Shown here in pieces: positions 12,092 through 58,106 of a stretch of 64,000 nt of DNA. The notes beneath the pieces are model-generated. The model did no database searches, was not told the DNA's origin, and was given only the letters and a program-made list of their open reading frames with translations. Position numbers and translations under genes: made by a program. The stretch's first letter is position 1; the number at the start of each line of letters is the position of its first letter. Source of the DNA: Pseudomonas oryzihabitans. Its GTDB lineage: Bacteria > Pseudomonadota > Gammaproteobacteria > Pseudomonadales > Pseudomonadaceae. The stretch lies in assembly GCF_001518815.1 (NCBI RefSeq), contig NZ_CP013987.1, positions 2,254,501 to 2,318,500 of the forward strand. The letters are read 5' to 3'.

Positions 12092-13386
12092 CCGCCGACG
12101 GACTCAGCTGGGTCGACTCGGCCAACGGCCATGCCGATTTTTCCCTGCACAACCTGCCCCTGGGCGTGTTCAGTCGCGGCCAGGAGACGCCGCGTGGCGG
12201 GATGGCCGTGGGTGATCTCATCCTCGATCTGCGCTTCGCTCTCGAAGCCGGGCTGTTCCAGGGCGAGGCGCAGCGGGCCGCGGAACTGGCCGGCGAGGAG
12301 ACGCTGAATGCCTTCTTCGCCGCAGGCAAGGCGACACGGATCGCCCTGCGCCAGGCGGTGCAGGCGCTGCTGCGGGCCGATCATCCGCAACGTGACCAGC
12401 TCCTGGAACTGGGTGAGCACTTGCTGCCCCCCCAGAGTGCCTGCCGGATGCACCTGCCGGCGCGCGTGGGCGACTACACCGATTTCTATGTCGGCATCCA
12501 TCATGCCACCCAGATCGGTCGGCTATTCCGCCCCGACAATCCGCTGTTGCCCAACTACAAGCACGTGCCCATCGCCTACCACGGGCGCGCCTCGACACTG
12601 GGCGTCTCCGGCGAAGCCTTCAAACGCCCCAGGGGCCAGACGCTGCCGCCCGGACAGGAGGCGCCCGTCTTCGGACCCTGTCGCCGGCTGGACTACGAGT
12701 TGGAACTGGGCATCTGGATCGGGCCGGGCAATGCCCAAGGCGAGCCCATCGCCATCGCCGATGCGGCGGAGCATATCGCTGGTTTCTGTCTGCTCAACGA
12801 CTGGTCGGCGCGGGATATCCAGGCCTGGGAATATCAACCTCTGGGTCCCTTCCTGTCGAAGAGCTTCGCCAGCACCCTGTCACCCTGGGTGGTGACCGCG
12901 GAAGCCCTGGCGCCTTATCGCACGGCGCAGCCGGCGCGACCGGCCGGTGATCCCCGGCCGTTGCCCTATCTGTTCGACGAGGCCGATCAGGCCGGGGGCG
13001 CCCTGGATATCGAGCTGGAGGTGCTGCTGCGCACACCGCTCATGGCGCAGCAGGGGCTGCCCGCCCAGCGTATCGCCCTGAGCAACACCCTGAACATGTA
13101 CTGGACCGTGGCGCAGATGGTGGCCCATCACACGGCCAATGGTTGCGCGCTGAATCCGGGGGACTTCTTCGGCTCCGGCACCCTGTCCGGTCCGGACGCG
13201 GGCAGCTGCGGCAGCCTGCTGGAAGTCACCCAGGGCGGCAAACAACCCCTGCAGCTGCCCGGCGGTGAAACCCGCACCTTTCTGGAGGACGGCGACGAGG
13301 TCATTCTCAGGGCACGCTGCCGCAAGCCCGGGCTGCCTGCGATCGGCTTCGGCGAGTGCCGCGGCCGGGTGCAGGCGGCGGACTAG
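12088..13386 (+). CDS. fahA: fumarylacetoacetase
   Basis: This enzyme hydrolyses fumarylacetoacetate to fumarate and acetoacetate, the last step of tyrosine breakdown. It has 432 residues with an N-terminal SH3-like domain and the C-terminal FAH catalytic fold. Visible family blocks are [18 protein letters not shown] (about residues 133-150), [20 protein letters not shown] and [24 protein letters not shown], which together hold the metal and catalytic His/Asp/Glu/Lys residues. The ATG overlaps the hmgA stop codon, so the two are translationally coupled. The following gene is convergent with a gap of only 3 bp. Confidence 0.96.
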
Positions 13387-44358: not shown

Positions 44359-46386
44359 CTAGAGATCCAGTTCCAGTGGCGCGGACCCGGCAGCGGGCCG
44401 CGCGCAACAGAGCAGGGCCTGGTCGGCAGCGACCGCCGCGGCGGGTTCCTTGGCATAGGTGACCGCGCCCTGGAGCAGTCCCGTGCGACAGCTGCCACAG
44501 TGCCCCTCGCGACAGCTGAAGGCGGGCTCCAGGCCCTGGGCTTCGGCTAGTTCCAGCAGGCTGCCGGAGGCGGGCGTCCACTGCGCTTGCTGGCCGGACG
44601 CCGCGAAGCGCACCCGGACGGCCTCGGTGGCCGCGGCAGGCCGCACGGTCGCCGCCGTCGCCGCACCGCTGCGCACCAGGCCGGCCGGACCGAAGGCTTC
44701 GGCACGGATACGGCCATCCTCGATGCCAAAACCGCGCAAGCCGTCATATAGCCCCTGGGTGAAGGCCGCGGGGCCGCAGAGGTAGAAGTCATAGTCACCG
44801 AAGGGCAGCTGGCGGCCCAGCAGCGCCATGTCGATGCGCCCGGCGACGTCATAGTCCACCCCGGGAAGGGCAGCAGCGGGATCGCTCAGCAGCCTGATCA
44901 CCCGTAGCGTTTCCGGAGCCCTGGCCATCAGCTCGCTCAGCTCCCGGTCGAAGGCCCGTTCCGCCTGGGTCCGGGCGCCATAGAACAGCGTGACTGGCCG
45001 CCGACCCTGATGGACCGCCTGGCGCAGCATGGCCAGCAACGGAGTGATGCCGATCCCGGCGGCGAGGAACACCAGGGGGCGCTCCGCCGAGGCCGCCAGG
45101 GTGAAGTCGCCGGCGGGCGCCTGGGCCTCGATCAGGTCGCCTTCGCGCAGCTGGTCGTGCAGCAGTCGCGAGACCAGGCCGTCGCGCTTGACGCTGATGC
45201 GGTAATAGCCGTCGGCGGGGAGGGAGGTCAGGGTGTAGGTTCGCACCAGGGAGGGTTGCCCTGCCTCGACTGTCACCCGGATCGGCAGGAATTGACCGGC
45301 CTGGTAGGGGGGCAGGGCTGCGCCGTCCACTGATTCGAGGTGGAAGGAGCGGATGGTGGCGCTCTCCTGGACGATCCGGGTGATGCGCAGCGGACGCCAG
45401 CGGCGGTCCTGGGCCCTGGCCTGCAGGCGCCGTTTGGCTTCCGCCCAGCTGCCGGTCAGCCGACTGCTCTCCGACTCGCCGCCGGGCTGCGCCTGCCAGC
45501 GCAACGCCAGGGCGCCGCGGCGACGGACGATACGCTGGGGGCGAAAGGTCCAGAGGCGTTCGGCGCCTTCGAAGGCGGCGATCTCGGGCGAGTCGAACAG
45601 GACCTCGGCGGTCCCGCTCAGCTGCAGCAGATCGCCGCGCTCCAGGTCCGCGAACAGCAGTCCGGCCCGGCCATTGGCGACGACATTGCCCAGGGTGTTG
45701 AAGAACAGATTGCCGTTGAAGTCGGGAATGGTCAGCAGGCCCTCGGCGTCTGCCCGGACGAAGCCCGGCTTGCCGCCCCGGTGGGAGACATCGACCCGTC
45801 GCTGGCCCTGCTGGTCGGCGTAGGAGGCGACGAAAAAGGCATCGGCACTGGTGATTAGCGCGCGGGCCGCCACATCCAGGCTGGCGAGCTGCTCCCCGGG
45901 CGTGACCGGGACGGCGCCCGGTTCGTGAGCGAAGCTCAGGTCACGCAGCTGGATATAGCGCGGGCAGTTGCCAAAGCTCTGGTCCACCGTCACGCGCAGT
46001 CCCTGGGCCGTGGGGCTGAGGATGCCGTTCATGCGATTGCGGCGGCGGGTGTGCCACTCGATGCCCAGCAGGCCCACGGCCGCGTCTGCGCCCAGTCCAG
46101 GCGCTGCTGGATCCTCGCTGGCGGGGCGGGCGGCGATATCCAGGGTGGTGGACGTGGGCGAGGCGAGAAAGCCCGGCTGGCCTTCCAGGATCGTCGCCCA
46201 GGCGTCGCCCGCGGCATCCACGCTGCCCAGTACCACGAAGGGCAGCTGGGCGAAGAACTGCCGATGCTGGTCGGGCATGAACGGCCGGATCACCCGCGGC
46301 CCCAGGGCCTCCAGGCGTTCACGAACGCCTAGCTGTTCCTGGATGAAGGTTTCCCCGGCGTGCCAGGAGGGTAGGGGCTCATGCAT
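44359..46386 (-). CDS. PNPOx-like / flavin reductase / ferredoxin fusion protein
   Basis: This 675-residue protein joins three modules. Residues about 40-290 resemble pyridoxamine-phosphate-oxidase-like flavin-binding domains (FFAQLPFVVLGSVDAAGDAWATILEG, DFNGNLFFNTLGNVVANGRAGLLF). About 335-570 is a ferredoxin-NADP reductase module with RTYTLTS (FAD), GIGITPLLAML (NAD(P)H) and YLCGPAAF. About 590-675 is a plant-type [2Fe-2S] domain with Cys625, Cys630, Cys633 and Cys660. It follows the GST gene by 31 bp. Electrons could flow from NAD(P)H to an unidentified acceptor. No oxygenase partner is adjacent. Confidence 0.85.
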   Translation of the reverse strand: MHEPLPSWHAGETFIQEQLGVRERLEALGPRVIRPFMPDQHRQFFAQLPFVVLGSVDAAGDAWATILEGQPGFLASPTSTTLDIAARPASEDPAAPGLGADAAVGLLGIEWHTRRRNRMNGILSPTAQGLRVTVDQSFGNCPRYIQLRDLSFAHEPGAVPVTPGEQLASLDVAARALITSADAFFVASYADQQGQRRVDVSHRGGKPGFVRADAEGLLTIPDFNGNLFFNTLGNVVANGRAGLLFADLERGDLLQLSGTAEVLFDSPEIAAFEGAERLWTFRPQRIVRRRGALALRWQAQPGGESESSRLTGSWAEAKRRLQARAQDRRWRPLRITRIVQESATIRSFHLESVDGAALPPYQAGQFLPIRVTVEAGQPSLVRTYTLTSLPADGYYRISVKRDGLVSRLLHDQLREGDLIEAQAPAGDFTLAASAERPLVFLAAGIGITPLLAMLRQAVHQGRRPVTLFYGARTQAERAFDRELSELMARAPETLRVIRLLSDPAAALPGVDYDVAGRIDMALLGRQLPFGDYDFYLCGPAAFTQGLYDGLRGFGIEDGRIRAEAFGPAGLVRSGAATAATVRPAAATEAVRVRFAASGQQAQWTPASGSLLELAEAQGLEPAFSCREGHCGSCRTGLLQGAVTYAKEPAAAVAADQALLCCARPAAGSAPLELDL

Positions 46387-46417
46387 GACCTTGACCTCCA
46401 GCAGGGTGAGGGCTCGA

Positions 46418-47029
46418 TCAGGCCCGGAGGCCGGCCACGGTCTCGGGAAAGGGCACGAAGCCGGGCAGGGCCTCCACCCGCTGCAGGAAGGCGCGCACCG
46501 CCGTATAGGGCGCCAGCTCCACATTGCCTTCCGGCGCTCCAGCCAGGTAGCTGTAGAGGGCGATGTCGGCGATGGTCGGGTGATCGGCAGCCAACCACTC
46601 GCGCGTGGTCAGGTGCGCCTCCAGGCGTTCGAGCAGGACATGGGCGCGGGCGATGACTTCTTCCGGATTCAGGCGGGCACCGAACACCGTGATCAGTCGC
46701 GCCGATGCCGGGCCATAGGCCAGTTCGCCTGCAGCCACCGATAGCCAGCGCTGCACCGCGGCCGCGCCAGCGGGGTCTTCCGGTAGCCAATCGGTACGCC
46801 CGGCCTTTTTCGCCAGGTAGACGAGGATGGCATTGGAATCGGCGACCACCGTCGCGCCGTCCGCCAGCACCGGCACTTGGCCGAAGGGATTGAGGGCGAG
46901 GAATTCCGCCGTGCGATTGGCGCCGCCCGGAATATCGATGTCGATCAGCTCGACCTCGATCCTCAGCAGCGAGGCGAAGAGTACGGCGCGATGGGCATGA
47001 CCGGACAGCGGGGTGTGATAGAGCTTCAT
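46418..47029 (-). CDS. glutathione S-transferase
   Basis: This 203-residue two-domain GST has the N-terminal thioredoxin-like domain [22 protein letters not shown], cis-proline GQVPVLADG and [11 protein letters not shown], and the C-terminal helical domain with the N-cap box [13 protein letters not shown]. It probably conjugates or reduces an electrophile. It is the first gene of an operon with the PNPOx-reductase fusion. An IclR-like palindrome at 47130-47148 lies 101 bp upstream. Confidence 0.9.
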
Positions 47030-47154: not shown

Positions 47155-47347
47155 CTAGGTCCTGTATGAAAAGTCGCCGAGCGAAAGTCAGGCGAGGCCT
47201 AGGCGGCCCCACGAAAAAGGCTGAGGAAGCGGACCGGGCTCGCGCACGAGTTTTAGACTGGTAAATAAGCATTGCGGCCGGGCTGGCGATCCAGGCCTTT
47301 TTCAACGCAGCATCACCGAGCGCAGGCAGTTTTCGTACAGGATCTAG
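47155..47347. mobile_element. MITE family A, copy 2 (193 bp)
   Basis: This copy is inverted relative to 26952-27114. Its ends are CTAGGTCCTGTATGAAAAGT and the complement-type TTTTCGTACAGGATCTAG, each with a few substitutions from copy 1. It is 30 bp longer than copy 1; one extra stretch includes CTAGGCGGCCCCACG. CTAG again marks both edges, and the right CTAG supplies the TAG stop of the M20 peptidase gene. Confidence 0.75.
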
Positions 47348-48495
47348 CGGCAGGCGAAGGCCAACACCCGCCCCAGCATGGCATCGCAATCATCCAGCTG
47401 CGCCTGGCTGATGAATTCGTCCGGCTTGTGACCCTGTGCCATGCTGCCGGGGCCGCAGACCACGGTGGGGATGCCCGCCGCCGCGAACAGCCCCCCTTCG
47501 GTGCCGAAGGCCACCGTGCCGAAGTCGCGCGAGCCACAGAACTGCGCGATCCAGTCGGCCGCCTCGCTTTCGATGGCGGTATCCAGGCCGGGATAGCTCG
47601 ACAGCTCGGTGAAGCGGATGGCGCTCCGACCGCTGATGGCGCGCATGGCCGGGAGCAATGCCGCTTCGGCATAGGCCTGCAGCTGATGGATCACCTGGTA
47701 GGGGTCCTGGGCGGGCAGGGCGCGGATCTCGAAATCGAAGGTGCAGTCCTGGGGCACGATGTTCAGTGCCTGGCCGCCACCGATGAGGCCGGTCTGCACC
47801 GTGGAGAAGGGCGGATCGAAGCGGGGGTCCTGGCTTTCCGCTGCCTTGAGCGCCTCACCGAGCCGGCCGAGTTCCACGACCAGGCGCGCGGCGTATTCGA
47901 CGGCGTTGACGCCCTGGAGCGCATAGGCCGAATGACAGGCCGCGCCGTGCACCTGGCAGCGCATGGCTACCTTGCCCTTGTGGCCGAGCACGGGTTTCAG
48001 CTCCGTGGGCTCACCGATCAGGCACAGCAGCGGCTTGACCGGATGCAGGGTCAACTGGTCGAGCAGGCTGCGCACGCCGAGGCAGCCGACTTCCTCGTCG
48101 TAGGACAGTGCCAGGTGCAGCGGGCGGCGCAGGGCCGCACGGCTGGCCGCGGGCACCAGTGCCAGCAGGCAGGCCAGAAAGCCCTTCATGTCGGCGGTAC
48201 CGCGACCGTAGAGCTTGCCGGCGCTTTCGCTGAGGACAAAGGGGGGACGGGTCCAGGCCTGGCCGTCTACCGGCACCACGTCGGTATGCCCCGAGAGCAC
48301 GATGCCCGGCACGTCCGCCGGTCCCAGGGTGGCGAACAGATTGGCCTTGGTGCCTTCGCCGTTGTGGATCAGCTCGTAGGGTACGCCGAAGCCCTCTAGG
48401 TAGCCGGCGACAAAGTCGATCAGCGCCAGGTTGGATTCGCGGCTGGTGGTGTCGAAGGCCACCAGCCGTGCCAGTAGTTCACCGCTGGCGCTCAT
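47344..48495 (-). CDS. M20 metallodeacylase, ArgE-like (second paralogue)
   Basis: This 383-residue zinc amidohydrolase has the same length and motif order as the protein at 35842: SGHTDVVPVDGQ, GRGTADMKGFLA, SYDEEVGCLG, GEPTELK and QGHKPDEFI. The residue before DEE is Tyr here and His in the paralogue. The start overlaps the DUF1028 gene by ATGA. It ends the eight-gene operon and would release an N-acyl group from the pathway's intermediate. The stop codon is formed by the CTAG edge of a MITE. Confidence 0.88.
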   Translation of the reverse strand: MSASGELLARLVAFDTTSRESNLALIDFVAGYLEGFGVPYELIHNGEGTKANLFATLGPADVPGIVLSGHTDVVPVDGQAWTRPPFVLSESAGKLYGRGTADMKGFLACLLALVPAASRAALRRPLHLALSYDEEVGCLGVRSLLDQLTLHPVKPLLCLIGEPTELKPVLGHKGKVAMRCQVHGAACHSAYALQGVNAVEYAARLVVELGRLGEALKAAESQDPRFDPPFSTVQTGLIGGGQALNIVPQDCTFDFEIRALPAQDPYQVIHQLQAYAEAALLPAMRAISGRSAIRFTELSSYPGLDTAIESEAADWIAQFCGSRDFGTVAFGTEGGLFAAAGIPTVVCGPGSMAQGHKPDEFISQAQLDDCDAMLGRVLAFACR

Positions 48496-49169
48496 CGGTC
48501 GTCTCCCGGGACGCCGTAGCCGGGGGCGAGATCCGGGCGCACCGCCCGGTCGAGATAGTCCTGCAACTGGGGTTCATAGGCGCGCCACAGCGCCGTCAGC
48601 TCACCGATGGGGTCCGTCTCGGCCCAGTCGACCCGCAGATTGACGATGGGCCAGCTGGCGTCGCCCACCACCAGCAGCGCCGCCGAATGCACCGGACCGG
48701 CCTCGCCACCGGCGGCCATGGCCGCCTGCATGGCCCGCAGCAGGCGCTGGGCAAGAGCGCCCTGGCTGGCTTCGAAGCTCTCCACCAGCGCCTCCACAAC
48801 CGCGGGGCTCGCCAGCATGTTGCCAGCGCCCACGCAATCCCGGCCGCTGCGCGCCTGGTGCACGCCCAGGGTATAGGCACCGCTGTGGTGGGCACTGCGG
48901 CCCTGGGCGTCGATGACGGTTACCTGGCGATACTCGGCGTAGCCGTCGTCGGCCAGGCTCTCGGCCAGGGCCACGGTGGGAGCCAGTCCCGCGGCCAGTC
49001 GCTCCAGGGTGCGCGGCCCTAGGGCCGGCAGGGTGATGTTCTGCGAGCTGACCGCGCCGATCCCGGGTTGCAGCCAAGGACAACGGGCGCCCACGGCGAT
49101 GCTCGATGAACTGATGGCGATGCCGAACTGACCGGTCGTGGCGCAGCGGGCGGTGAGGGAAAAGGTCAT
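48492..49169 (-). CDS. DUF1028 family Ntn-type hydrolase-like protein
   Basis: This 225-residue protein fits the whole DUF1028 pattern: MTFSLTARCATTGQFGIAISSSSIAVGARCPW at the N-terminus, AVSSQNITLPALGP, YTLGVHQARSGRDCVGAGNMLAS and LLVVGDA. The family has an Ntn-hydrolase-like fold and often travels with RidA and M20 peptidases in amino-acid-derivative catabolism, but its chemistry is not settled. ATGA overlap with the M20 gene suggests that the two act together. Confidence 0.85.
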   Translation of the reverse strand: MTFSLTARCATTGQFGIAISSSSIAVGARCPWLQPGIGAVSSQNITLPALGPRTLERLAAGLAPTVALAESLADDGYAEYRQVTVIDAQGRSAHHSGAYTLGVHQARSGRDCVGAGNMLASPAVVEALVESFEASQGALAQRLLRAMQAAMAAGGEAGPVHSAALLVVGDASWPIVNLRVDWAETDPIGELTALWRAYEPQLQDYLDRAVRPDLAPGYGVPGDDR

Positions 49170-49178
49170 GGGGCGGCC

Positions 49179-49595
49179 TCAGTCGGGGATCACGGCGATG
49201 ACATCGATCTCCATCAGCCACTGGGGCTGGCCCAAGGCCGCCACTACCAGGCCGGTGGAAATGGGGAAAACCCCCTTGAGCCACTTGCCGACCTCCTGGT
49301 ACACCGGTTCGCGATAGCGCGGATCGATCAGGTAGGTGGTGGTCTTGACGATATGACTGAGGTCGCTGCCCGCTTCTTCCAGCAGCTGCTTGACGTTCTT
49401 CATGGCCTGCTCGGCCTGGGCCCGGGGATCGCCCAACCCCACCAGATTGCCGTCGAAGTCGGTGCCCACCTGGCCGCGCACATAGACGGTGTTGCCGGCC
49501 CGCACGGCCTGGCAAAGGTCGTTGTCCAGGGTCTGGTTGGGGTAGGTGTCCTTGGTGTTGAACATGCGGATACGGGTGTGGGTCGGCGCGGCCAT
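49179..49595 (-). CDS. RidA/YjgF family imine deaminase
   Basis: This 138-residue RidA-type protein has the blocks RAGNTVYVRGQVGTD, AMKNVKQLLEEAGSDLSHIVKTTTYLID and the C-terminal LMEIDVIAVIPD. RidA enzymes hydrolyse reactive enamine/imine intermediates to ketones and ammonia. The substrate-binding Arg that precedes the YLID strand region in RidA seems replaced here, so the protein may belong to a Rid subgroup other than RidA itself. ATG 49595 has GGGGA before it. An imine could come from the flavin monooxygenase encoded upstream. Confidence 0.85.
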   Translation of the reverse strand: MAAPTHTRIRMFNTKDTYPNQTLDNDLCQAVRAGNTVYVRGQVGTDFDGNLVGLGDPRAQAEQAMKNVKQLLEEAGSDLSHIVKTTTYLIDPRYREPVYQEVGKWLKGVFPISTGLVVAALGQPQWLMEIDVIAVIPD

Positions 49596-49616
49596 GGGGA
49601 TGCTCCTTTTTTCGAA

Positions 49617-49711
49617 GTAGGTTGGGCTGAGATGGCTCCATCGTCGAAGCCCAACACGGTGGATTTTGATCTCGATCATGTTGGGCTTCGCTGGCGCTCA
49701 ACCCAACCTAC
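49617..49711. repeat. REP-like nested palindrome
   Basis: The outer arms GTAGGTTGGGCTGAG (49617-49631) and CTCAACCCAACCTAC (49697-49711) pair at 14 of 15 positions. The inner arms CGAAGCCCAACA (49645-49656) and TGTTGGGCTTCG (49679-49690) pair perfectly. The element fills the gap between the flavin monooxygenase and RidA genes inside an operon. GTTGGGTTGAGC-type repeats are common intergenic elements in Pseudomonas and other proteobacteria. Confidence 0.75.
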
Positions 49712-49716
49712 GCGCC

Positions 49717-49732
49717 CTATAGGGGTGGGTAT
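49717..49732 (-). repeat. third, variant copy of the 17-bp repeat
   Basis: CTATAGGGGTGGGTAT is the reverse complement of the repeat at 1432 and 2417 with one extra G. It adjoins the REP-like palindrome, and its end overlaps the TGA stop of the flavin monooxygenase gene. Confidence 0.5.
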
Positions 49733-51024
49733 CAGGCGCTGCGTGAGTGCTGCATCGGCGCACCGGCGGTTTCGCTCGGGCGGTAGTCCTGGTAGCGGCG
49801 CTGGATGGCGATCTGGTCGGCCACATGGCGGGCGTCGTGCCAGCAGCCCCAGATGAAGGCCGAGCCGCGGCGACTGAGCCAGGGCAGCCCGACGAAATAG
49901 ATGCCCGGCTCGGCGCCGACCCCGCGCTGGTGCCTGGGCTTGCCGTTCTCGCCGAAGGTGTCCACCTGCAGCCAGCTGAAGTCGGTGGCATAGCCGGTTG
50001 CCCAGATCACCGCGCTGACGCCCGCGGCCTTCAGGTCCAGCTCCTTGAGCGGTTCGCGGATGCAGGCGGCGTCCGCCACTCGTTCGCGGGCCGCGGGCTC
50101 TTCGGGCAGGTCCAGGCCATGGCGCGCGGCATAGGCGTCAGCGGCGTCGAGCAGGGCCAGGTAGTTGGCGTCGCCGGCGTCGAGATTCCTGTTGAGGTCC
50201 GGGCGGAAGCGCACCACGTCGTCGACGAAGACGTCGGTGAGGCCCACCAGGGTCATGCCGGCCTGGGCCAGGCGGCGGAAGTCCACGGTATGGCCGCCGC
50301 GGGCGCCGCTCACGGCGATGGTCACGTGCTCGCGACCCGGCTGCATGGTCTCGGTGTCCCACAGGCCGAGCACGCCCAGCCACCAGCAGAAGTCGCGGCC
50401 GCGATAGGCCCGCGGCGGCCGGTCATGGGGGCCTACGGAGAGATAGACGCGCTTGCCGGCGCGCAGCAATTCCTCGGCGATCTGCACCCCGGAGGAGCCG
50501 GCGCCCACCACCAGCACCGCGCCCTCGGGCAATTGTTGCGGATTGAAATAATGGGCGGAGTGGATCTGGTAGAGGCTCTCGTTTGTTGGTGCGATGGCCG
50601 GGATCACCGGCTTCTGGAAGGGACCGGTGGCCACCACCACACGCTGGGCGTTCAGGCTGCCGGTTGAGGTTTCCACCAGAAAGCCAGCCTGGCCGGCCTG
50701 GCGGGTCACCCGGGTGACGGCGACACCGGTGCGGATGGGCGCGTCGATCTGCCGGGCATAGGTCTCGAAGTAGGCGGCGATTTCGTCCTTGCCAGGAAAA
50801 CCATCCGGCGGCGTGTCGAATTCCAGGCCGGGGAAGCGGTCATGCCAGGCCGGGCCGTTGGCCACCAGGGAGTCCCAGCGGCCGGTGCGCCAGGCTTCGG
50901 CGATGCGGTTCTTTTCCAGCACCAGGTGCTCGATGCCGAGCCGCCCCAGGTGTTCGCTCATGGCGATCCCGGCTTGGCCGGCGCCTATCACCAGGGTGTC
51001 GATCGTGGTCGGTAATGTGGACAT
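49732..51024 (-). CDS. flavin-dependent monooxygenase
   Basis: This 430-residue class B flavoprotein monooxygenase-like enzyme has FAD motif TLVIGAGQAGIAMSEHLG (residues 11-28), NADPH motif VLVVGAGSSGVQIAEELL (about 170-187) and ATG motif VIWATGYATDFSW (near 350). It lacks an obvious full FxGxxxHxxxW/Baeyer-Villiger fingerprint (IHSAHYFNPQQL takes that position), which fits N-hydroxylating or YUC-like flavin monooxygenases. In this operon it may N-oxidise an amine, giving an imine for the RidA protein. Confidence 0.85.
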   Translation of the reverse strand: MSTLPTTIDTLVIGAGQAGIAMSEHLGRLGIEHLVLEKNRIAEAWRTGRWDSLVANGPAWHDRFPGLEFDTPPDGFPGKDEIAAYFETYARQIDAPIRTGVAVTRVTRQAGQAGFLVETSTGSLNAQRVVVATGPFQKPVIPAIAPTNESLYQIHSAHYFNPQQLPEGAVLVVGAGSSGVQIAEELLRAGKRVYLSVGPHDRPPRAYRGRDFCWWLGVLGLWDTETMQPGREHVTIAVSGARGGHTVDFRRLAQAGMTLVGLTDVFVDDVVRFRPDLNRNLDAGDANYLALLDAADAYAARHGLDLPEEPAARERVADAACIREPLKELDLKAAGVSAVIWATGYATDFSWLQVDTFGENGKPRHQRGVGAEPGIYFVGLPWLSRRGSAFIWGCWHDARHVADQIAIQRRYQDYRPSETAGAPMQHSRSA

Positions 51025-51102
51025 GAGGGTACCCTTCGGCCGCTCCGCAGGGTGCGGCCGTCATCTAAGCAGTAGGAAGGCGGAGCGGAGGCTCCGCGGC
51101 GA

Positions 51103-51834
51103 TCAATCCAGCACGGATGGGTCCTGCTGGACCATCAGTTCTTTCATCTCGGCGAAGTGCTGCTCGGAGAAGTCGGTGATGCCTTCCCAGGCCCGCGCGG
51201 TCTTCTCGGCGACCGCATCGGAGAGCACCTTGAGCGGCTGACCGGTGGACCAGGCGGTGACCAGGATCTGGCAGGCCCGCTCCAGGGTCCAGATGTCGTC
51301 GAAGGCCTGGCCGATGGTGGGGGCGATCACCATGACGCCGTGGTTGCCCATCAACAGCCGCTGCTTGCCGTCGAGCAGACCGGCTAGGCGCGCGCCCTCG
51401 GCCTCGGTGTCGGCCATGCCGCCATAGAGCTCGTCCACCGCCAGGCGGTTGAAGTAGCGTGCGGTGTTCTGGTCGATGGGCGGCACCTCAGGCTTGGCCA
51501 GGCAGGCCACCGCCGTGGTGTAGACCGGGTGCAGGTGTAGCACCACCCGGGCCTCCGGCAGTCGTCGATGGATCTGCCCATGGATCGACCAGGCCGTGGT
51601 GTCCACGTCAGGCCGCTCGGCGCCCTGCGGATCGTCCGCGTCGAGCAGCAGCAGGTCACTGGCGCGGATGCGCGAGAAGTGCTTCCACTTGGGGTTGATC
51701 AGGAACTGCTTGCCATCTGGCGAGACGGCCGCGCTGAAGTGGTTGGCGACGGCCTCGTGCATGCCGAGGTGGGCGATGACGCGAAAGGTCGCGGCCAGAT
51801 CGATACGCAGCCGTTCCTCGTGAGAAAGTGCCAT
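51103..51834 (-). CDS. class II aldolase/adducin family protein
   Basis: This 243-residue zinc lyase-fold protein has metal ligands apparent in VVLHLHPVYTTAVACL (His pair) and LLMGNHGVMVIAP (His). NHFSAAVSPDGKQFLINP is the substrate/phosphate loop region, without the strong phosphate pocket of fuculose-phosphate aldolase. It may cleave or decarboxylate a hydroxylated intermediate made by the PhyH-type oxygenase in the same operon. The ribosome-binding site CGGAG precedes ATG 51834. Confidence 0.85.
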   Translation of the reverse strand: MALSHEERLRIDLAATFRVIAHLGMHEAVANHFSAAVSPDGKQFLINPKWKHFSRIRASDLLLLDADDPQGAERPDVDTTAWSIHGQIHRRLPEARVVLHLHPVYTTAVACLAKPEVPPIDQNTARYFNRLAVDELYGGMADTEAEGARLAGLLDGKQRLLMGNHGVMVIAPTIGQAFDDIWTLERACQILVTAWSTGQPLKVLSDAVAEKTARAWEGITDFSEQHFAEMKELMVQQDPSVLD

Positions 51835-51853
51835 GGTGGTGACTCCGTAAGGC

Positions 51854-52687
51854 TCAGGGCTTGGGCATCAGGGTGGCGATATCCGCCTCGGTGGGCGCCT
51901 GGAAGTTGTATTTCTCCAGCAGCGCGGCGTATTCGGGAGTGGCGCTGTATTGCTTGAGCGCGTCCACCAGGGCGGTCCTGACCTCGTCGTTGCCCTTCTT
52001 CACGCCGAAGCCGTTGAGCACTGGGTAGATCAGGGTGTCCGAGGAGATCACCACGCGATTGCCGAGTTTTTCCACCAGGCCACGGGCCACGGCGGCGTCG
52101 GTGATCTGCGCCTCCACGGCCTTGGACAGCAGCGCCTGGGTGGTCTGGGGATCGGTGCCGTACTCGCTCACCGCGATGGGCTTAAGGCCGTTCTTCACGC
52201 AGTACTCGTCCGACAGCTTGTGCAACTGCTGCAGCCAGGAGGTGGCGCCCATGGAGCCGATCTTGTGGCCACAGAAGTCCTCCGGCTTCTTGGGCTGATA
52301 GCTGCTGCCCTTTAGCGAGATGATCGATTCTCCGCTCTTGAGGTAGGGGATCATGTCGATCACCTTCAAGCGCTCCGCAGTGATGTACATCGAGGAGTTG
52401 GTGATGTCGAAGCGTCCCCCCTGCAGTCCGGTGATGAGGTTGGGGAAGCGGGTGTCGAGCGTCTCCACGGAGCGGCCCATGACCTTGGCCAATCCCTCGA
52501 CGAATTCGATGTCGAAGCCTGCCGGCTTGTTGTCCTGCACGTATTCGTAGGGGAAGAAGGTCAGGTCGGAACCGGCGATGAGCTTGCCTGGCTGTTGGAA
52601 GGCCCCGGCGGCGGTCGAGGCCAGGGCGATGGCAGCGCCCAGCAGGGTGGCGGCGAGAGGGCGAATCGAGACGCTGAAGCTGTGCAT
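51854..52687 (-). CDS. amino-acid-type ABC transporter substrate-binding protein
   Basis: This 277-residue periplasmic protein of solute-binding family 3 has a Sec signal peptide (SIRPLAATLLGAAIALASTAAGA, cut about residue 29). The two-lobed domain follows, with GSDLTFFPYEYVQDNKPAGFDIEFVEGLAKVMG and ALLSKAVEAQITDAAVA. FCGHKIG is the inter-lobe segment. It delivers ligand to the fused permease-ATPase at 53617. ATG 52687 is chosen because the signal peptide starts there. Confidence 0.92.
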   Translation of the reverse strand: MHSFSVSIRPLAATLLGAAIALASTAAGAFQQPGKLIAGSDLTFFPYEYVQDNKPAGFDIEFVEGLAKVMGRSVETLDTRFPNLITGLQGGRFDITNSSMYITAERLKVIDMIPYLKSGESIISLKGSSYQPKKPEDFCGHKIGSMGATSWLQQLHKLSDEYCVKNGLKPIAVSEYGTDPQTTQALLSKAVEAQITDAAVARGLVEKLGNRVVISSDTLIYPVLNGFGVKKGNDEVRTALVDALKQYSATPEYAALLEKYNFQAPTEADIATLMPKP

Positions 52688-52715
52688 GGCGATGCTCCGT
52701 GACGGATAGGAAGGA

Positions 52716-53588
52716 TCAACCGGCGGCCTGGTCGAGCCCGGCCTGCTGGACGAAGAAGGAGGCGCCGCGCGGCTTCTGTGGCAGGCGCACGCTGTTGGCC
52801 ACGCTGCGCACCAGACCGCTTTCCTGACCGGCCACCAGGACGCCGGCGTGTTCGCTGGGCAGCGGGTTCTCGCCGAAGGGCAGGGCGTCCTCGGCGGCAT
52901 AGACGCTGATGAACAGGGTGCGCGGCAGTTCGGTTTGGTTGGGGCTGGAGGCATGCAGCAGGCGGGTGTGCATGAAGCACACCGAACCGGCCGGCCCGAA
53001 GCAGGCGGTCGGCTGGCCGCAGTGCTCGGCGACCACCCCGTCATCGACGGCGCCGCTGAAGCGACCGTCCTGCCAGTGCGACCACAGCGGACCCTGGTGG
53101 CTGCCGGGAATGACGGTAAGCGGGCCATTCTCCGGCGTGACCTCGCTCACCATCAGCAGCGCGGTGACCACGTCGTCGTTGCTGTGCGGGGTGAACAGAA
53201 AGTCCTGGTGCCATTTCACTTGGGTGGCGGTATGGGGCAACTTCGAATTGATCTTGCTGTGGTGAAAGCGGGTGCCGTTGCCGCCGATCAGTTGGGCGGC
53301 GACCTGCGCCATCCGCGAGGAAAGAGCGACCTGGCGATAGGTCGCGGAGATTTCTGTGGGCGAGCTGACCCGGCGCAGGGATGGGTGGTCGGGCCGATGG
53401 TCCAGCTCCACGTCGAAGCGAGCCCGACCATCCTGGGTCTCGCCCCAGGCCTCGGCATGGCTGCGGCTGTCTTCGACCCAGAGATCGAAGTCGGCCTGCA
53501 GGGCGGCGATCTCCTCGGCCGACAGCAGGTTCTCGACCACCAGGTAGCCGTCTCTGTGGAACTGGTCCAGTTGCGCTTGTTCGATCAT
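52716..53588 (-). CDS. phytanoyl-CoA dioxygenase (PhyH) family oxygenase
   Basis: This 290-residue Fe(II)/2-oxoglutarate oxygenase has a likely iron triad of His127, Asp129 (VKWHQDFLF) and His212 (RLLHASSPN; His207 is an alternative). Arg223 (LPRTLFISVY) should hold 2-oxoglutarate. LTVIPGSHQGPLWSH is the usual strand before the second histidine. PhyH relatives hydroxylate free amino acids and small acids as well as CoA esters. Between an amino-acid importer and its binding protein, it probably hydroxylates the imported compound first. GGAGA precedes ATG 53588. Confidence 0.88.
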   Translation of the reverse strand: MIEQAQLDQFHRDGYLVVENLLSAEEIAALQADFDLWVEDSRSHAEAWGETQDGRARFDVELDHRPDHPSLRRVSSPTEISATYRQVALSSRMAQVAAQLIGGNGTRFHHSKINSKLPHTATQVKWHQDFLFTPHSNDDVVTALLMVSEVTPENGPLTVIPGSHQGPLWSHWQDGRFSGAVDDGVVAEHCGQPTACFGPAGSVCFMHTRLLHASSPNQTELPRTLFISVYAAEDALPFGENPLPSEHAGVLVAGQESGLVRSVANSVRLPQKPRGASFFVQQAGLDQAAG

Positions 53589-53616
53589 GTCGTTTCTCCG
53601 AAAGCCAGGGGTGGGG

Positions 53617-55158
53617 TCAAGCCAGGGACACGTCCTTGAGGAAGGCCTCGACGCGCGGGTGCTGGCCGTTACGTAGTACCTCGGGCGCGTCGTCGCAGAC
53701 CACGCGGCCCTTTTCCATGAACACGATGCGATCCGAGACCTTGAAGGCGAAGTTCATCTCGTGGGTGACGATCACCATGGTGATGCCCTCCTGGGCCAGG
53801 GCCTCGATCACCTGCAACACCTCGTTGACCTTTTCCGGGTCCAGCGCCGAGGTGGGCTCGTCGAAGAGCATGATCTGCGGCCGCATCATCAGCGCCCGGG
53901 CGATGGCCACCCGCTGCTGCTGACCGCCAGAGAGCTGGTGCGGATACTTCCAGGCGTGGTCGAGCATCCCGACCTTGTGCAGCAGGGCGTAGGCCTGCTG
54001 CCGCAGGGCAGCTACGGTATCCAGGCGGTGATAGCGCGGTGCGAGCAGCAGGTTGTCCAGCACCGTCAGGTGGGGAAAGAGGTTGAAGCTCTGGAACACC
54101 ATGCCGATGTCCAGGCGATGCTCGCTGTTCTCAATGAAGCGCGGTTTCTGGGCGCCGTCCTTGTGCAGGTGAAGAAAGGGCTGGCCGTTGATGCGGATCT
54201 CACCGTTATCCAGTTGCTCCAATCCATTGAGCAAGCGGATCAGCGTGGTCTTCCCCGAACCCGAGGGGCCGATCACCGAGACCACCTCGCCTGGGTGGAT
54301 GCGCAGATTGACCGAGCCCAACACCTCGACGTCGTTATAGGCCTTGTGCAGGCGCGCGGCCTGCAGCGCCGGGGTGGTGGCGTCCCATTGCGGCTTGGCG
54401 CTGGCGGTCGAGGCCTGGGTGGCCAGGGCAAGCACCTGGGCGTCGGGGGTACGCACCACCTTGCGCTGGGTAACGTCGAGGAAGCGCTCCAGGCGTTTGA
54501 GCAGGAAGTCGAACAGGGTGACGATCAGCACGTAGTAGAAGGCCACCGCCACCATGGTTTCCATGACCAGGAAATTCTGCGAATAGAGGCGCTGGCCGAC
54601 CATGAGGATCTCGGTGAGGGAGATCACCGACACCAGGGAGCTGAGCTTGACGATGGAGATGTATTCGTTGGCCAGCGAGGGCAGGGCCACCCGCAGTGCC
54701 TGGGGGATGACGATGCGCCACTGGGTGCCAAGAAAACGCAGACCCAGGGCTCGCGCCGCCTCACCCTGGCCCTTGGGAATCGACAACAGGCCGCCACGGT
54801 GGATCTCGGCGACATAGGCCGTCTCGCTGATCACCAGGCCGATGAGCCCGGCCCAGAAAGGGTCGGCCAGTACCACCGAGGTGGCCGGCAGCGCCTGGGG
54901 CAGGTTGTAGATGAAGATCAGCAGCACCAGCAGCGGCACGCTGCGAAAGAACCAGATGTAGCCCCGCGCTGGCAGGCTGAGTGCGGGCAGCCGGGATTGC
55001 TTGGCCAGGGCGATGAAGAAGCCCAGCGCGATGCTGATGATCCAGGTGAGAGTGCTGAGCTTGATGACCGTCCAGGTTGCCAGCCAGAATTGAGTGTCGC
55101 CGATAAGGCCGAACATGTAGTTCCAGTCAAAAGTCATCGTCGAAAGACCCGTTGCCAT
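53617..55158 (-). CDS. amino acid ABC transporter, permease-ATPase fusion
   Basis: This 513-residue protein fuses a His/Glu/Gln-type permease to its ATPase. Residues 1-225 carry about five helices and the coupling loop KGQGEAARALGLRFLGTQWRIVIPQALRVALP. Residues 263-513 form the ATPase with Walker A GPSGSGKT (297-304), signature LSGGQQQRVAIARAL and Walker B IMLFDEPTSALD. Such fusions are uncommon; separate genes are usual. The start may be ATG 55158 or ATG 55137 (MTFDWNY); neither has a clear ribosome-binding site. It is the first gene of the minus-strand operon. Confidence 0.9.
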   Translation of the reverse strand: MATGLSTMTFDWNYMFGLIGDTQFWLATWTVIKLSTLTWIISIALGFFIALAKQSRLPALSLPARGYIWFFRSVPLLVLLIFIYNLPQALPATSVVLADPFWAGLIGLVISETAYVAEIHRGGLLSIPKGQGEAARALGLRFLGTQWRIVIPQALRVALPSLANEYISIVKLSSLVSVISLTEILMVGQRLYSQNFLVMETMVAVAFYYVLIVTLFDFLLKRLERFLDVTQRKVVRTPDAQVLALATQASTASAKPQWDATTPALQAARLHKAYNDVEVLGSVNLRIHPGEVVSVIGPSGSGKTTLIRLLNGLEQLDNGEIRINGQPFLHLHKDGAQKPRFIENSEHRLDIGMVFQSFNLFPHLTVLDNLLLAPRYHRLDTVAALRQQAYALLHKVGMLDHAWKYPHQLSGGQQQRVAIARALMMRPQIMLFDEPTSALDPEKVNEVLQVIEALAQEGITMVIVTHEMNFAFKVSDRIVFMEKGRVVCDDAPEVLRNGQHPRVEAFLKDVSLA

Positions 55159-55527
55159 TCATTGAAAGTGCGTGCCCGAAGAGGCGCGCTGTAGCGGTAA
55201 TTACAGAATTGGCAGTCAGTGGACTTATCGTCAATTAACAAATTACGGGCCTTTGTATAGGACTTGCCTATACAGAAAAACCGCTTTTTTAAGCCTCTGA
55301 TTCATATGCCCCGATACAGGGCAAGGCGCCGTCATTCAGGGCGCTAATGCGGGATTTTGGTGCAGTCTTGCGGAAGGGTCGGGAGTTAATAGCGGGCAGG
55401 ATTCGCTGGCTATACAGGCATTTGGCCGTTGTTTGAGCAGAATGTCGGATGGCTGGCACAGCTTTCGCTTCAAGGGTAGAGGCTATGCAGAACCATTCTC
55501 TGCACTGTTTTTTCCTATAGGCGATAT
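55159..55527. other. 369-bp divergent promoter region
   Basis: This gap between the operon and its divergent LysR gene holds no gene. It contains the dyad at 55254-55274, a further CTATACAGG near 55410 and CCTATAGG near 55514, so CTATA-type half-sites recur. Composition is AT-richer near 55220-55300, as expected for promoters. Confidence 0.6.
55254..55274. promoter_or_regulatory. LysR-type operator candidate
   Basis: TGTATAGG and CCTATACA form a perfect 8-bp dyad with a 5-base spacer, about 96 bp upstream of the operon's first gene. The size and site suit the recognition element of the divergent LysR protein. Confidence 0.6.
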
Positions 55528-56460
55528 GTGACGCATTTTACGCTGAGACAACTTCGTTACTTCGTGGCAGTGGTCGAGGAAGACAGCATTGTCGAGGCGG
55601 CGCGGCAACTCCATATATCGCAGCCGTCGATATCCGTGGCCATCAAGAATCTCGAAGAAAGTTTCGAGCAGAAGTTATTCATTCGCCATCACGCTCAGGG
55701 TGTTTCCCTGACGGCCAGCGGGCGTCGGCTCTATGAGAAGGCCAAGCAATTGTTGCGGCTTTCCCAGGAACTGGAGCAGAACGCCCGGGCAGAAAACGAG
55801 ATGGTCTCGGGCACGGTGGCCATCGGTTGTTTCGAATCCGCAGCGCCGCTCTATCTGCCCAGGCTGGTCGCCGGCTTCAAGCGGCTCTATCCGGAAATCA
55901 CCATCCAGCTGCAGGACGGCGAACAGCACGAGCTGATGCATGGGGTACATCGCGGCCGTTTCGACCTGGTGTTTCTGTATGACCTGGAGCTGGGCGACTC
56001 CATCACCAAGGAAAAGCTCAACGCGCCGCACAAGCCCTACGCCTTGCTGCCCATTGCCCACCCGCTGGCACACAAGAAGGCGGTGACGCTCAAGGAGCTG
56101 AGTCGTGAGCCCATGATCCTGCTGGACGTGGTACCCAGCCGCAATTACTTCATCGACATCTTCAAGGAGAAGGGCTACCACCCCACAGTGGCCTACAGTT
56201 CACCCTCCATCGAGATGGTGCGCTGCATGGTGGGGCAGGGCCTGGGCTTCTCGGTGCTGGTCACTCGGCCGACCACTGACCTTACCTACGACGGCAAGCG
56301 CCTGGCGCAGGTGAACATCCATGACGACATGCCGGCCTCGACCTTCATCATGGCCTACCTGCGCAACAACGAGCCTACCAAGGCGACCCGGCTGTTCATG
56401 GACTATTGCCGGTCCGTGGACCTCTCGCCGCTGGCGCCCGAGCCCGCGGCACGAGACTAA
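55528..56460 (+). CDS. LysR-family regulator of the divergent operon
   Basis: This 310-residue regulator starts with GTG 55528 (MTHFTLRQLRYFVAVVEEDS). The helix-turn-helix is SIVEAARQLHISQPSISVAIKNLEESFEQKLFIRH. The effector domain includes VSGTVAIGCFESAAPLYLPRL and HELMHGVHRGRFDLVFLYD. It resembles LysR proteins of the CysB/AllS-like amino-acid-use type. It is divergent from the transporter-led operon, which it probably activates when the substrate is present. Confidence 0.88.
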   Translation: MTHFTLRQLRYFVAVVEEDSIVEAARQLHISQPSISVAIKNLEESFEQKLFIRHHAQGVSLTASGRRLYEKAKQLLRLSQELEQNARAENEMVSGTVAIGCFESAAPLYLPRLVAGFKRLYPEITIQLQDGEQHELMHGVHRGRFDLVFLYDLELGDSITKEKLNAPHKPYALLPIAHPLAHKKAVTLKELSREPMILLDVVPSRNYFIDIFKEKGYHPTVAYSSPSIEMVRCMVGQGLGFSVLVTRPTTDLTYDGKRLAQVNIHDDMPASTFIMAYLRNNEPTKATRLFMDYCRSVDLSPLAPEPAARD

Positions 56461-56540
56461 CCCTCGCCGTTCGAGCCTTTTACCTGAGCCCGTGCGCACG
56501 ATAGAGCGCCCGGGACTGGTCGATGCCAGTGCCTGTAAAG

Positions 56541-56559
56541 TAGAATCAATATCATCTAG
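56541..56559 (+). promoter_or_regulatory. possible Fur box
   Basis: TAGAATCAATATCATCTAG matches the 19-bp Fur consensus at about 10 positions and lies 22 bp before the ECF sigma factor gene. Iron control is expected for such genes. Confidence 0.4.
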
Positions 56560-56581
56560 GCATCATCAGGTAGCAGCCGGC

Positions 56582-57094
56582 ATGAGTGATATGGCTCTCG
56601 AGTCCTCGCGCACCCTCCAGGCGTTCTATCGCGACCACAGCGGTTGGCTGCAGGCCTGGTTGCGTCGGCGGCTGGGCAGTGAGTGGGATGCCGCCGACCT
56701 CAGCCAGGAAGCCTTCCTGCGGCTGCTGCGCAATCCCCAGGTAGTGGCCGAGCTGCAAGAACCCCGTGCCTATCTGCTGACCATTGGCAAACGCCTGCTG
56801 ATCAATTTCCAGCGTCGGCGCAGCCTGGAGCAGGCCTATCTCAATGCCCTGGCGGAATTGCCCGAGGCCTGCGCCCCGTCACCCGAGCAGCGCTGGGTGT
56901 TGCTGGAGACCCTGCAAGCCCTGGACGAACTGCTCGACGGCCTGCCATCCGCGGTGCGCCAGGCCTTTCTGCTCAGCCAGCTCGAAGGCCTGACCTATCG
57001 CGAGATCGCCGACCAACTGCAGGTCTCCGAGCGCACCATCAAGAGATACATGGCGCAGGCCTACGAGCACTGCCTGCTGGCCGAATTGTGCTGA
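56582..57094 (+). CDS. FecI-type ECF RNA polymerase sigma factor
   Basis: This 170-residue extracytoplasmic-function sigma factor has region 2 with YRDHSGWLQAWLRRRLGSEWDAADLSQEAFLRLLR (DLSQEAF is typical) and PRAYLLTIGKRLLINFQRRR. Region 4 is QLEGLTYREIADQLQVSERTIKRYMAQAYEHC. The order sigma factor, FecR, TonB receptor matches cell-surface signalling systems in which iron-siderophore binding activates transcription of the receptor. ATG 56582 is chosen because it gives the normal family N-terminus. The stop overlaps the FecR start. Confidence 0.93.
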   Translation: MSDMALESSRTLQAFYRDHSGWLQAWLRRRLGSEWDAADLSQEAFLRLLRNPQVVAELQEPRAYLLTIGKRLLINFQRRRSLEQAYLNALAELPEACAPSPEQRWVLLETLQALDELLDGLPSAVRQAFLLSQLEGLTYREIADQLQVSERTIKRYMAQAYEHCLLAELC

Positions 57095-58035
57095 GCGACC
57101 CCCAGGACCGCCGGCGGACGGCCATCCGCGAAGCGGCTGGTTGGTTGGCGCTGCTGGAGTCGGGTGAAGCCACTGCGCGGGAACAGGAGCTCTTGCAGGA
57201 GTGGCGCGAAGCCGATGCCGAGCACGAGCGCGCCTGGCAGGCGGCGCTGACGCTGCAACAACGCTTCGCCACGGTGCCCTCGCGGCTGGCCATGGCCAGT
57301 CTGCGGCCAGCCGATCGCGGTCGCCGCACGGCCTTGCGTCAGCTGCTTGGCCTGGCGGTGGTGATCCCGACCGGATGGTGGCTGATGCGCGAGCTGCCGC
57401 TGGACGCCTGGACCGCCGCCGTCAGCACCGCTACCGGTGAACACCGCAGCCTGACCCTGGCCGACGGTAGCCTGCTGCAACTCAATACCGCGACCGCCGT
57501 CGACTTGGATGAGACACGCCGCTACCTGCGGCTGATCCGCGGCGAAGCCTCGTTGCAGGTGCCCGGCGCCCTCCCCATGACCCTGGATACCGGCTTCGGC
57601 GCGGTGACGCTGCGCCAGGCCGAGGTCTGCGTGCAGCGGCATGACGAGGGGTGCGACGTGCGCGTCGTCAGCGGCAGCGTGGATATCCAGCCGCTGGCGG
57701 GGCCTCGCCTGGAGCTGGGAGAGGGCCGGCAGCTGCGTCTGAGCGCCCTGGGCGTCGGTGCCATCGAGCCCTTCGCCGCGACCGTGCTGAGCTGGCGCCA
57801 GGGCGTGCTGATCGCCCAGGACCAGCCGCTCGGTGAGTTCCTGGAGGAATTCAGCCGTTATCGCTTCGGCCTGCTGCGCTGGGACCCGGCGGTAGCCGAT
57901 CTGCGAGTGACCGGCAGTTTCCAGCTCGCCGATACCGACCGCGTCCTGGCGCTGCTGGCCGCCACCCTGCCGGTGGACGTGCAGTGGCGGACCCGCTTCT
58001 GGGTCACCCTAGTGCCGCGCTCGACCACCGCCTGA
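57088..58035 (+). CDS. FecR-type anti-sigma/sigma regulator
   Basis: This 315-residue inner-membrane signal relay starts at GTG 57088, overlapping the sigma gene. The N-terminal cytoplasmic FecR domain has EAAGWLALLESGEATAREQELLQEWREADAEHERAW. One helix (about residues 82-97, LLGLAVVIPTGWWLM) crosses the membrane. The periplasmic part has STATGEHRSLTLADGSLLQLNTATAV, the FecR signature. It should receive the signal from the receptor's N-terminal domain and release the sigma factor. Confidence 0.93.
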   Translation: MLSDPQDRRRTAIREAAGWLALLESGEATAREQELLQEWREADAEHERAWQAALTLQQRFATVPSRLAMASLRPADRGRRTALRQLLGLAVVIPTGWWLMRELPLDAWTAAVSTATGEHRSLTLADGSLLQLNTATAVDLDETRRYLRLIRGEASLQVPGALPMTLDTGFGAVTLRQAEVCVQRHDEGCDVRVVSGSVDIQPLAGPRLELGEGRQLRLSALGVGAIEPFAATVLSWRQGVLIAQDQPLGEFLEEFSRYRFGLLRWDPAVADLRVTGSFQLADTDRVLALLAATLPVDVQWRTRFWVTLVPRSTTA

Positions 58036-58106
58036 AAAAAGCCTGTCCCCTTTTACGCGCTCGTCGGTCATTACCGGCATAGGACAAACAACAGGAGGGG
58101 GATTCG

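Follow-up and report, generated by a model that had tools for sequence, protein, structure and literature searches.

A run of eight genes on the minus strand of Pseudomonas oryzihabitans DNA (47344–55158 of the window, that is, of the whole analysed stretch of 64,000 nucleotides: assembly GCF_001518815.1, contig NZ_CP013987.1, positions 2,254,501–2,318,500 of the forward strand) has about an even chance of being an aerobic catabolic operon whose lower half corresponds to the hinFLHG genes of histamine catabolism and whose upper half, which appears to be new, would import imidazole propionate and shorten it by α-oxidation. As for the substrate alone, the chances for and against imidazole propionate are balanced in much the same way. 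The genes were delimited as open reading frames and checked against Pfam families, which, from the M20 gene to the importer gene, are M20, DUF1028, Ribonuc_L-PSP, a flavin-type oxidoreductase, Aldolase_II, SBP_bac_3, PhyH, and BPD_transp_1 fused to ABC_tran. Listed from the importer gene, they are:

53617–55158, minus strand: fused PAAT permease-ATPase of an ATP-binding cassette (ABC) importer (Pfam BPD_transp_1 43–227, ABC_tran 282–437; found in 79 of 80 PhyH loci)
52716–53588, minus strand: PhyH-family Fe(II)/2-oxoglutarate oxygenase, predicted imidazole propionate α-hydroxylase (Pfam PhyH, 1.9e-30)
51854–52687, minus strand: periplasmic solute-binding protein of family 3 (Pfam SBP_bac_3)
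51103–51834, minus strand: ALD2, a class II aldolase-fold protein, predicted non-haem iron oxygenase (imidazole lactate to imidazole-4-acetate)
49732–51024, minus strand: flavin adenine dinucleotide-dependent monooxygenase (FMO), HinF orthologue by the FMO tree and by 75% identity to the P. aeruginosa-type HinF in locus L211
49179–49595, minus strand: RidA-family protein without the canonical catalytic Arg, HinL orthologue (98% identity to L211)
48492–49169, minus strand: DUF1028 protein with conserved Thr2, HinH orthologue (Pfam DUF1028, 2e-66; 67% identity to L211)
47344–48495, minus strand: M20/ArgE-type amidohydrolase, HinG orthologue (Pfam Peptidase_M20; NCBIfam PRK07522 subfamily; 70% identity to L211)

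The start of RidA at 49595 was picked by homology, the longest open reading frame beginning at 49679. From the ABC gene to the M20 gene, the intergenic gaps are 28, 28, 19, 78, 136, 9, and −4 nucleotides, and a single transcript for the eight genes is therefore plausible. The original prediction for this stretch had described eight genes on one strand, divergent from a LysR gene with a perfect dyad in between, and had taken them for a single catabolic system that includes both an importer and a regulator; both statements are borne out, the first by the coordinates, the Pfam families, and the dyad at 55254–55274. It had further known of no described pathway with this set and had named the system the best candidate for an undescribed one in the window. 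This stands for the upper half, since no description of such a module, or of any imidazole propionate degradation pathway, was found among the matches listed from the open-licence literature; it does not stand for the lower half, which is the described hinFLHG set.

In the proposed pathway, the ABC importer (53617–55158 with the binding protein, 51854–52687) would take up imidazole propionate (deamino-histidine), and PhyH, using O2 and 2-oxoglutarate, would hydroxylate it at the α-carbon to imidazole lactate. ALD2, as a three-His iron oxygenase, would convert imidazole lactate to imidazole-4-acetate and CO2 by oxidative decarboxylation, the upper scheme being R-CH2-COOH → R-CHOH-COOH → R-COOH. 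HinF, HinL, HinH, and HinG would open the imidazole ring and release aspartate, a turnover of imidazole-4-acetate that is predicted by analogy with the hin pathway, and the HinK-like LysR protein would turn the operon on, probably sensing imidazole-4-acetate as HinK does. The classical route to aspartate leads through imidazolone acetate, formimino-aspartate, and formyl-aspartate; which Hin protein would perform which lower step is what we infer, and so are each of the upper-half reactions and the substrate.

Lower half of the operon and the hin genes

According to the text and Table 1 of PMC8231116, hinCD convert histamine to imidazole-4-acetate, and hinFLHG (PA5393 to PA5390) carry imidazole-4-acetate on to aspartate. 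The FMO, RidA, DUF1028, and M20 genes of the window stand in the order of hinF-L-H-G, and a cluster (L211) of a P. aeruginosa-type genome (G470) has the same four genes in the same order, with identities to the window of 75, 98, 67, and 70%, respectively. By sequence, then, the lower four genes are orthologous to hinFLHG, and the N-oxidation of an amino acid derivative once assigned to the FMO gives way to HinF, whose operon acts on imidazole-4-acetate. We take L211 to be the PA5390–PA5393 region, leaning on the LysR protein of G470, identical to PDB 3fzv in 295 of 295 residues, and on the flanking genes, which match those of the PA5389–PA5398 region; RidA lies at L211:10728–11132. The same genome has a HinK-like gene (L227) followed by HinD-like and HinC-like genes, 82 and 81% identical to the references from a histamine-type cluster (L030), with a gap for a permease. 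In L030 itself, a methyl-accepting-chemotaxis-like gene (11677–13284) stands directly behind hinG.

An FMO tree was built from 98 of 117 loci after removal of near copies. In it, the window FMO shares a supported clade (97/92) of 25 rows with the HinF of G470 and with one from a hinC/hinD cluster. Another 25 rows, PhyH-linked and from P. fluorescens-type loci, branch off deeply on their own; their group also takes in two AroQ-type clusters and contains no histamine HinF. Over the whole tree, the PhyH-linked label changes seven times, at least five of the changes being forced by supported branches. A second kind of hin-like cluster, with an AroQ-like protein, a quinone reductase, and a glutathione S-transferase (GST), was seen in Pseudomonadaceae (L029, L108, L147, L222), some of these loci adding a 2-hydroxyacid dehydrogenase and a polyamine-type ABC importer. 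Three further loci (L093, L095, L224) contain RidA (61–65%) and DUF1028, with M20 in two of the three, beside an HpaB-like oxygenase that replaces the FMO, which suggests a sister pathway for another ring. The names HpaB-like, AroQ-like, quinone reductase, GST of the second kind of cluster, and chemotaxis protein, as well as those of the additional genes, come from reading the sequences.

The tree bears on another reading, in which some other heteroaryl carboxylic acid would lose one carbon to PhyH and ALD2, and a HinF paralogue of changed specificity would open a non-imidazole ring. Such a change would suit the large divergence of the FMOs from P. fluorescens-type loci (57–60%), which form their own deep group, and the existence of the RidA–DUF1028 sets with an HpaB-like oxygenase. 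The reading nevertheless appears quite unlikely, because the window FMO groups with support beside the P. aeruginosa-type HinF and the HinF from a cluster with hinC and hinD, the regulator is homologous to HinK, and PhyH genomes without an FMO at the PhyH locus carry HinF elsewhere, in five of the seven examined beside hinC/hinD-like genes.

The FMO-RidA-DUF1028-M20 core also occurs without PhyH. In 36 clustered core loci, two of which have the PhyH module besides the genus relative, three families recur that record annotations name: cytosine-type permeases (12 loci), aldehyde dehydrogenases (10), and aminotransferases (6). The permeases, which lie close to the core in Klebsiella and Burkholderia, had prompted two candidate routes, a Rut-like pyrimidine route and a breakdown of the thiamine pyrimidine, both of which were dropped once the hin genes explained the core. 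Genes similar to hinFLHG were also seen on plasmids (L070, which is CP107226.1 from Klebsiella pneumoniae, L072, and L075), with a cytosine-type permease beside them in L070 and L075 and, in L070, a GMC oxidoreductase and an aldehyde dehydrogenase as well. A RidA match was found in 248 plasmid records, 147 of them at an identity of at least 80%; 105 are Klebsiella.

RidA is the most uniform member of the core. Across 104 beta- and gammaproteobacterial loci, its mean all-against-all identity is 92% versus 70, 67, and 67% for its cluster neighbours, and of 5356 pairs compared, it is the most conserved of the four in 5347. At four-fold sites, it has diverged almost to the same extent as the neighbours (0.55 versus 0.48–0.53 in 800 random pairs), and the constraint therefore acts on the protein. 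Every one of the 104 rows has Ser where E. coli RidA has Arg105 (FPISTG in 97, YPISTG in 4, FPVSTG in 3); because of this replacement, the window protein, as its alignment tells, is not a canonical imine deaminase, and the imine hydrolysis formerly expected of it is not supported. Homologues of the DUF1028 protein start with Met-Thr in 116 of 117 cases, and Thr2 would suit the nucleophile of an N-terminal nucleophile hydrolase, the class to which DUF1028 may belong; no paper naming DUF1028 was found in the open-licence literature. The deacylation predicted for the M20 protein fits HinG in outline, which, by analogy with histidine catabolism, would be a deformylase.

Predicted chemistry of PhyH and ALD2

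His127, Asp129, His212, and Arg223 of the PhyH protein are present in the window and invariant in 81 aligned rows. From knowledge of the family, we take the first three to be the iron triad (HxD...H) and Arg223 to be the 2-oxoglutarate residue. The nearest PDB sequence is that of ectoine hydroxylase.

ALD2 keeps the three His ligands of its fold, while Glu73 of FucA is replaced by Ala (Ala in NovR, Gly in TqaM) and Tyr113 by Gln (Gln in NovR and TqaM too), and the phosphate-site residues of aldolases are missing. The combination of Glu73 and Tyr113 with three His that marks a FucA-type class II aldolase is thus broken, whereas the fold, the three His, and the lack of Glu73 are those of NovR and TqaM, the nearest characterised relatives. 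A Foldseek search with the ALD2 model (predicted local distance difference test score, pLDDT, 89) returned NovR first (template-modelling score, TM, 0.85–0.88), the uncharacterised 3ocr second, and then TqaM (0.83–0.87), the TM to E. coli FucA being 0.67–0.71. From its residues and its model, ALD2 looks like an iron oxygenase of the NovR/TqaM kind and not like an aldolase. D-3-phenyllactate, with which TqaM has been crystallised (9m0a), is an aryl analogue of imidazole lactate. Oxidative decarboxylation of α-hydroxy acids is described for both TqaM and CloR/NovR (PMC11880133, PMC13111500), and CloR/NovR are described as acting on α-keto acids as well (PMC13111500).

A PhyH hydroxylase followed by an α-hydroxy acid decarboxylase of the ALD2 type would shorten an acid by one carbon, hence the predicted α-oxidation; if the product is imidazole-4-acetate, the intermediate is deduced to be imidazole lactate and the substrate imidazole propionate. 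The original prediction had read the class II aldolase as a lyase, within a scheme in which an amino acid derivative is imported, hydroxylated, cleaved by a lyase, and N-oxidised, with imine hydrolysis and deacylation as further steps. Going by family names, the eight genes agree with this scheme, but ALD2 is devoid of the acid–base Glu, of the counterpart of Tyr113, and of the phosphate-site residues, RidA is devoid of the deaminase Arg, and the lower four genes are hinFLHG, which leaves the scheme very improbable.

Recurrence of the gene set and the weighing of rivals

One genome per species was scanned with the PhyH alignment, which gave 496 relatives; the best 80 were kept and the counts refer to these, weaker ones lying outside. 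Within about 10 kb, the 80 loci contain PhyH and ALD2 in 80 cases, the ABC, binding protein, and LysR genes in 79 each, RidA and FMO in 70 each, DUF1028 in 62, and M20 in 61, so that the suggested search for co-occurrence of PhyH, FMO, RidA, DUF1028, and M20 was answered by a recurring set. All eight genes are found together in 67 of 143 loci, duplicates included. The set appears in varied gene orders in Pseudomonadaceae, Enterobacterales, Marinomonas, Granulosicoccaceae, and Burkholderiaceae: in the P. oryzihabitans and P. syringae groups, the genes follow one another in a single run; in Klebsiella, Kluyvera, and Pantoea, FMO-RidA-DUF1028-M20 points away from ABC-PhyH-SBP-ALD2 (SBP, solute-binding protein); and the P. 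fluorescens group has a third layout. Because it recurs across groups in different orders, the gene set is a real functional unit and not a product of chance. In the genus sample, DUF1028 and PhyH are both present in 9 of 13 genomes and both absent from the other 4, and the eight genus relatives compared have all nine genes each. Among 398 genomes sampled across the phylum, 7 have PhyH at 1e-60, all of them among the 37 with RidA at 1e-40.

The upper module also co-occurs with hinF where the two are apart. Ten PhyH loci without an FMO nearby and four with one were checked, and a HinF match was found in all 14 genomes, including all 10 of the former kind; in 8 of these 10 loci, none of the four core genes is present and HinF lies elsewhere in the genome. 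Seven of the 8 distant HinF clusters were examined (G451 was left out), and in 5 of them (L217–L221) HinF is accompanied by hinC- and hinD-like genes; another belongs to the AroQ type, and the last shows neither in the stretch. In Pseudomonas sp. KNUC1026 (G456, L195), the sole hinF match lies just outside the PhyH locus and is interrupted by stops; the TGA in the HinF match of G454, G455, and G457 lies at the end of the match, stops within it occurring only in G456.

Given hinFLHG and a HinK-like regulator, the genes might make up a plain histamine operon with PhyH, ALD2, and the importer as accessories, for example, for uptake of histamine or imidazole-4-acetate. Across 80 loci that combine PhyH, FMO, and RidA (the window, 10 other loci, and 69 from the PhyH scan; 8 repeat a genome, leaving 72 distinct), no hinC-like (at least 70%) or hinD-like (at least 60%) gene turned up. 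HinC and HinD are absent among the eight genes of the window, and the best HinC match is 53–55% in 13 of 13 genus genomes, whereas this query shares 81% identity with the HinC-like gene in L227; HinD was not searched genome-wide. With PhyH and ALD2 moreover together in every one of the best 80 PhyH loci, this reading appears extremely improbable.

Several observations weigh against the proposed pathway. In the binding protein, equivalents of HisJ D11, S69, S70, R77, and D161 are kept, and those of Tyr14, Ser72, and Gln122 are Phe, Tyr, and Trp. These eight do not vary across 78 rows, in which invariance extends to 11 of the 12 positions checked in the pocket. The Arg for the α-carboxylate and the Asp for the α-ammonium group of amino-acid-binding SBPs are thus both retained, each invariant in the 78 rows, and either the imidazole sits in the place of the ammonium group or the true ligand is an α-amino acid. 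Loss of the ammonium-binding Asp had been considered and was ruled out by the alignment, and the AlphaFold model of this protein (pLDDT 52) was too poor to use. Further, 3 of the 7 PhyH genomes in the phylum sample have distant PhyHs standing alone, with uninformative gene neighbours, which leaves 4 that represent the module; proteins similar to ALD2 at near 50% identity occur in genomes without RidA (17 of the 33 genomes with ALD2); an AroQ-like gene is present in 27 loci with PhyH; and 14 Enterobacteriaceae loci have a second PhyH-family gene, whose nearest PDB entry is the dioxygenase MysH (e.g., L142:2490–3314 and L133:5879–6697, in Klebsiella, Kluyvera, Raoultella, and relatives).

The pocket leads to a reading in which an α-amino imidazole acid (histidine betaine, D-histidine, or similar) is imported, PhyH hydroxylates its α-carbon with departure of the amino group, and ALD2 oxidatively decarboxylates the resulting imidazole pyruvate or lactate, the end still belonging to HinFLHG. 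The kept equivalents of Arg77 and Asp161 and the invariant Tyr and Trp gained in the pocket agree with such a ligand, and so does the use of α-keto acids by CloR/NovR (PMC13111500). There is, however, no aminotransferase among the operon genes, and histidine already has a route of its own. To our knowledge, α-hydroxylation with loss of an amino group is also unusual for the PhyH family, and we consider this reading rather unlikely.

Regulator, surrounding genes, and known systems

The regulatory features of the operon are:

55528–56460, plus strand: LysR regulator, HinK homologue, divergent from the operon (364 bits to PDB 3fzv/6m5f; 55% identity to the LysR protein of L227)
55254–55274, no strand: perfect dyad TGTATAGG-N5-CCTATACA between the LysR and ABC genes, with 8-bp arms around 5 bp

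We take PDB 3fzv and 6m5f to be HinK of P. aeruginosa, which the hinD/hinC-like neighbours in L227 fit. At 55% identity to the HinK-like protein of G470 and 364 bits to these entries, the window regulator is of the HinK type, and no other LysR protein of G470 passed 1e-60. HinK is described as a LysR regulator that responds to imidazole-4-acetate, with a measured affinity of 1.56 mM that is called low (PMC8231116).

The dyad is a probable LysR operator. In 52 loci that have a HinK-like LysR gene (several genomes occur twice), the region before the ABC gene was searched for a related dyad; one with at most 5 mismatches of 16 was found in 31, in 29 of these 111–151 nucleotides upstream; the 21 loci without such a dyad are from Enterobacterales (20) and Marinomonas (1). 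Shuffled sequences (best of 60 per locus) reach 3–5 mismatches, and single hits of this quality are within chance, so that the argument for the related dyad is its constant position, held in Pseudomonadaceae loci and not in Enterobacterales, and not the quality of individual matches. Upstream of the FMO gene, the dyad was not found in the 12 loci examined (6–8 mismatches of 16).

The 136-nucleotide gap between FMO and RidA contains a nested palindromic repeat (49617–49711); the gap measures 29–33 nucleotides in 5 of 8 genus relatives and 108–138 in the other 3, and because of this variation, the repeat may be a mobile insertion. Downstream of the operon, a GST gene (46418–47029) and a large reductase gene (44359–46524), whose pyridoxamine-oxidase-like and ferredoxin-reductase parts were named by reading the sequence, lie on the same strand; they were considered as operon members and dropped, since 6 of the 80 loci have them and each of the 6 belongs to the genus of the window. 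By the LysR gene, 56321–60503 holds sigma-factor-like, FecR-like, and TonB-receptor-like genes, also named by reading, which probably serve iron uptake and are unrelated to the operon.

Imidazole propionate is a gut-bacterial product of histidine associated with type 2 diabetes and cardiovascular disease, and a 2025 review terms it a non-metabolizable product (PMC11872695). That the operon is the first genetically defined bacterial pathway for this compound, a coenzyme A (CoA)-free α-oxidation by PhyH and an ALD2-type iron oxygenase joined to the histamine pathway and present in many Pseudomonas and in Klebsiella, Kluyvera, Raoultella, and Pantoea, has slightly less than an even chance of being right. 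A 1973 study in the Biochemical Journal reportedly dealt with the use of imidazolylpropionate by Pseudomonas testosteroni, and growth on imidazole propionate may already be known. If the proposal is true, enzymes that remove imidazole propionate would make it possible to assay the compound directly and to ask which bacteria use it up; iron oxygenases of the class II aldolase fold, known from antibiotic and alkaloid synthesis, would also serve catabolism, and genes of this sort annotated as aldolases would need re-reading; and DUF1028 and the Arg-less RidA would gain a place in a defined pathway.

Among known systems, the hin histamine pathway (hinDAC and hinFLHG with HinK) shares with the operon the four lower genes and their order, a LysR regulator of the HinK type, and the predicted imidazole-4-acetate intermediate; it differs in that hinD, hinA, and hinC are absent from the window operon, where the ABC importer, PhyH, and ALD2 replace them in a single cluster. 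ALD2 is like NovR/CloR and TqaM in the class II aldolase fold, the three His, the missing Glu73, and the Gln at Tyr113, but it is about 25% identical to them and belongs to a catabolic cluster with a partner hydroxylase and not to antibiotic or alkaloid synthesis. The α-oxidation of phytanic acid, which proceeds by PhyH and a 2-hydroxyacyl lyase, shares the predicted 2-hydroxylation by PhyH and the ensuing loss of the carboxyl carbon; in contrast to it, the window operon would employ neither a CoA ester nor a thiamine lyase, an O2-dependent iron enzyme being predicted to give the acid directly. Histidine utilisation (hut) likewise opens the imidazole ring to yield an amino acid, yet no hut-type enzyme is found among the eight genes, whose predicted route is an oxygenase one with aspartate as its product.

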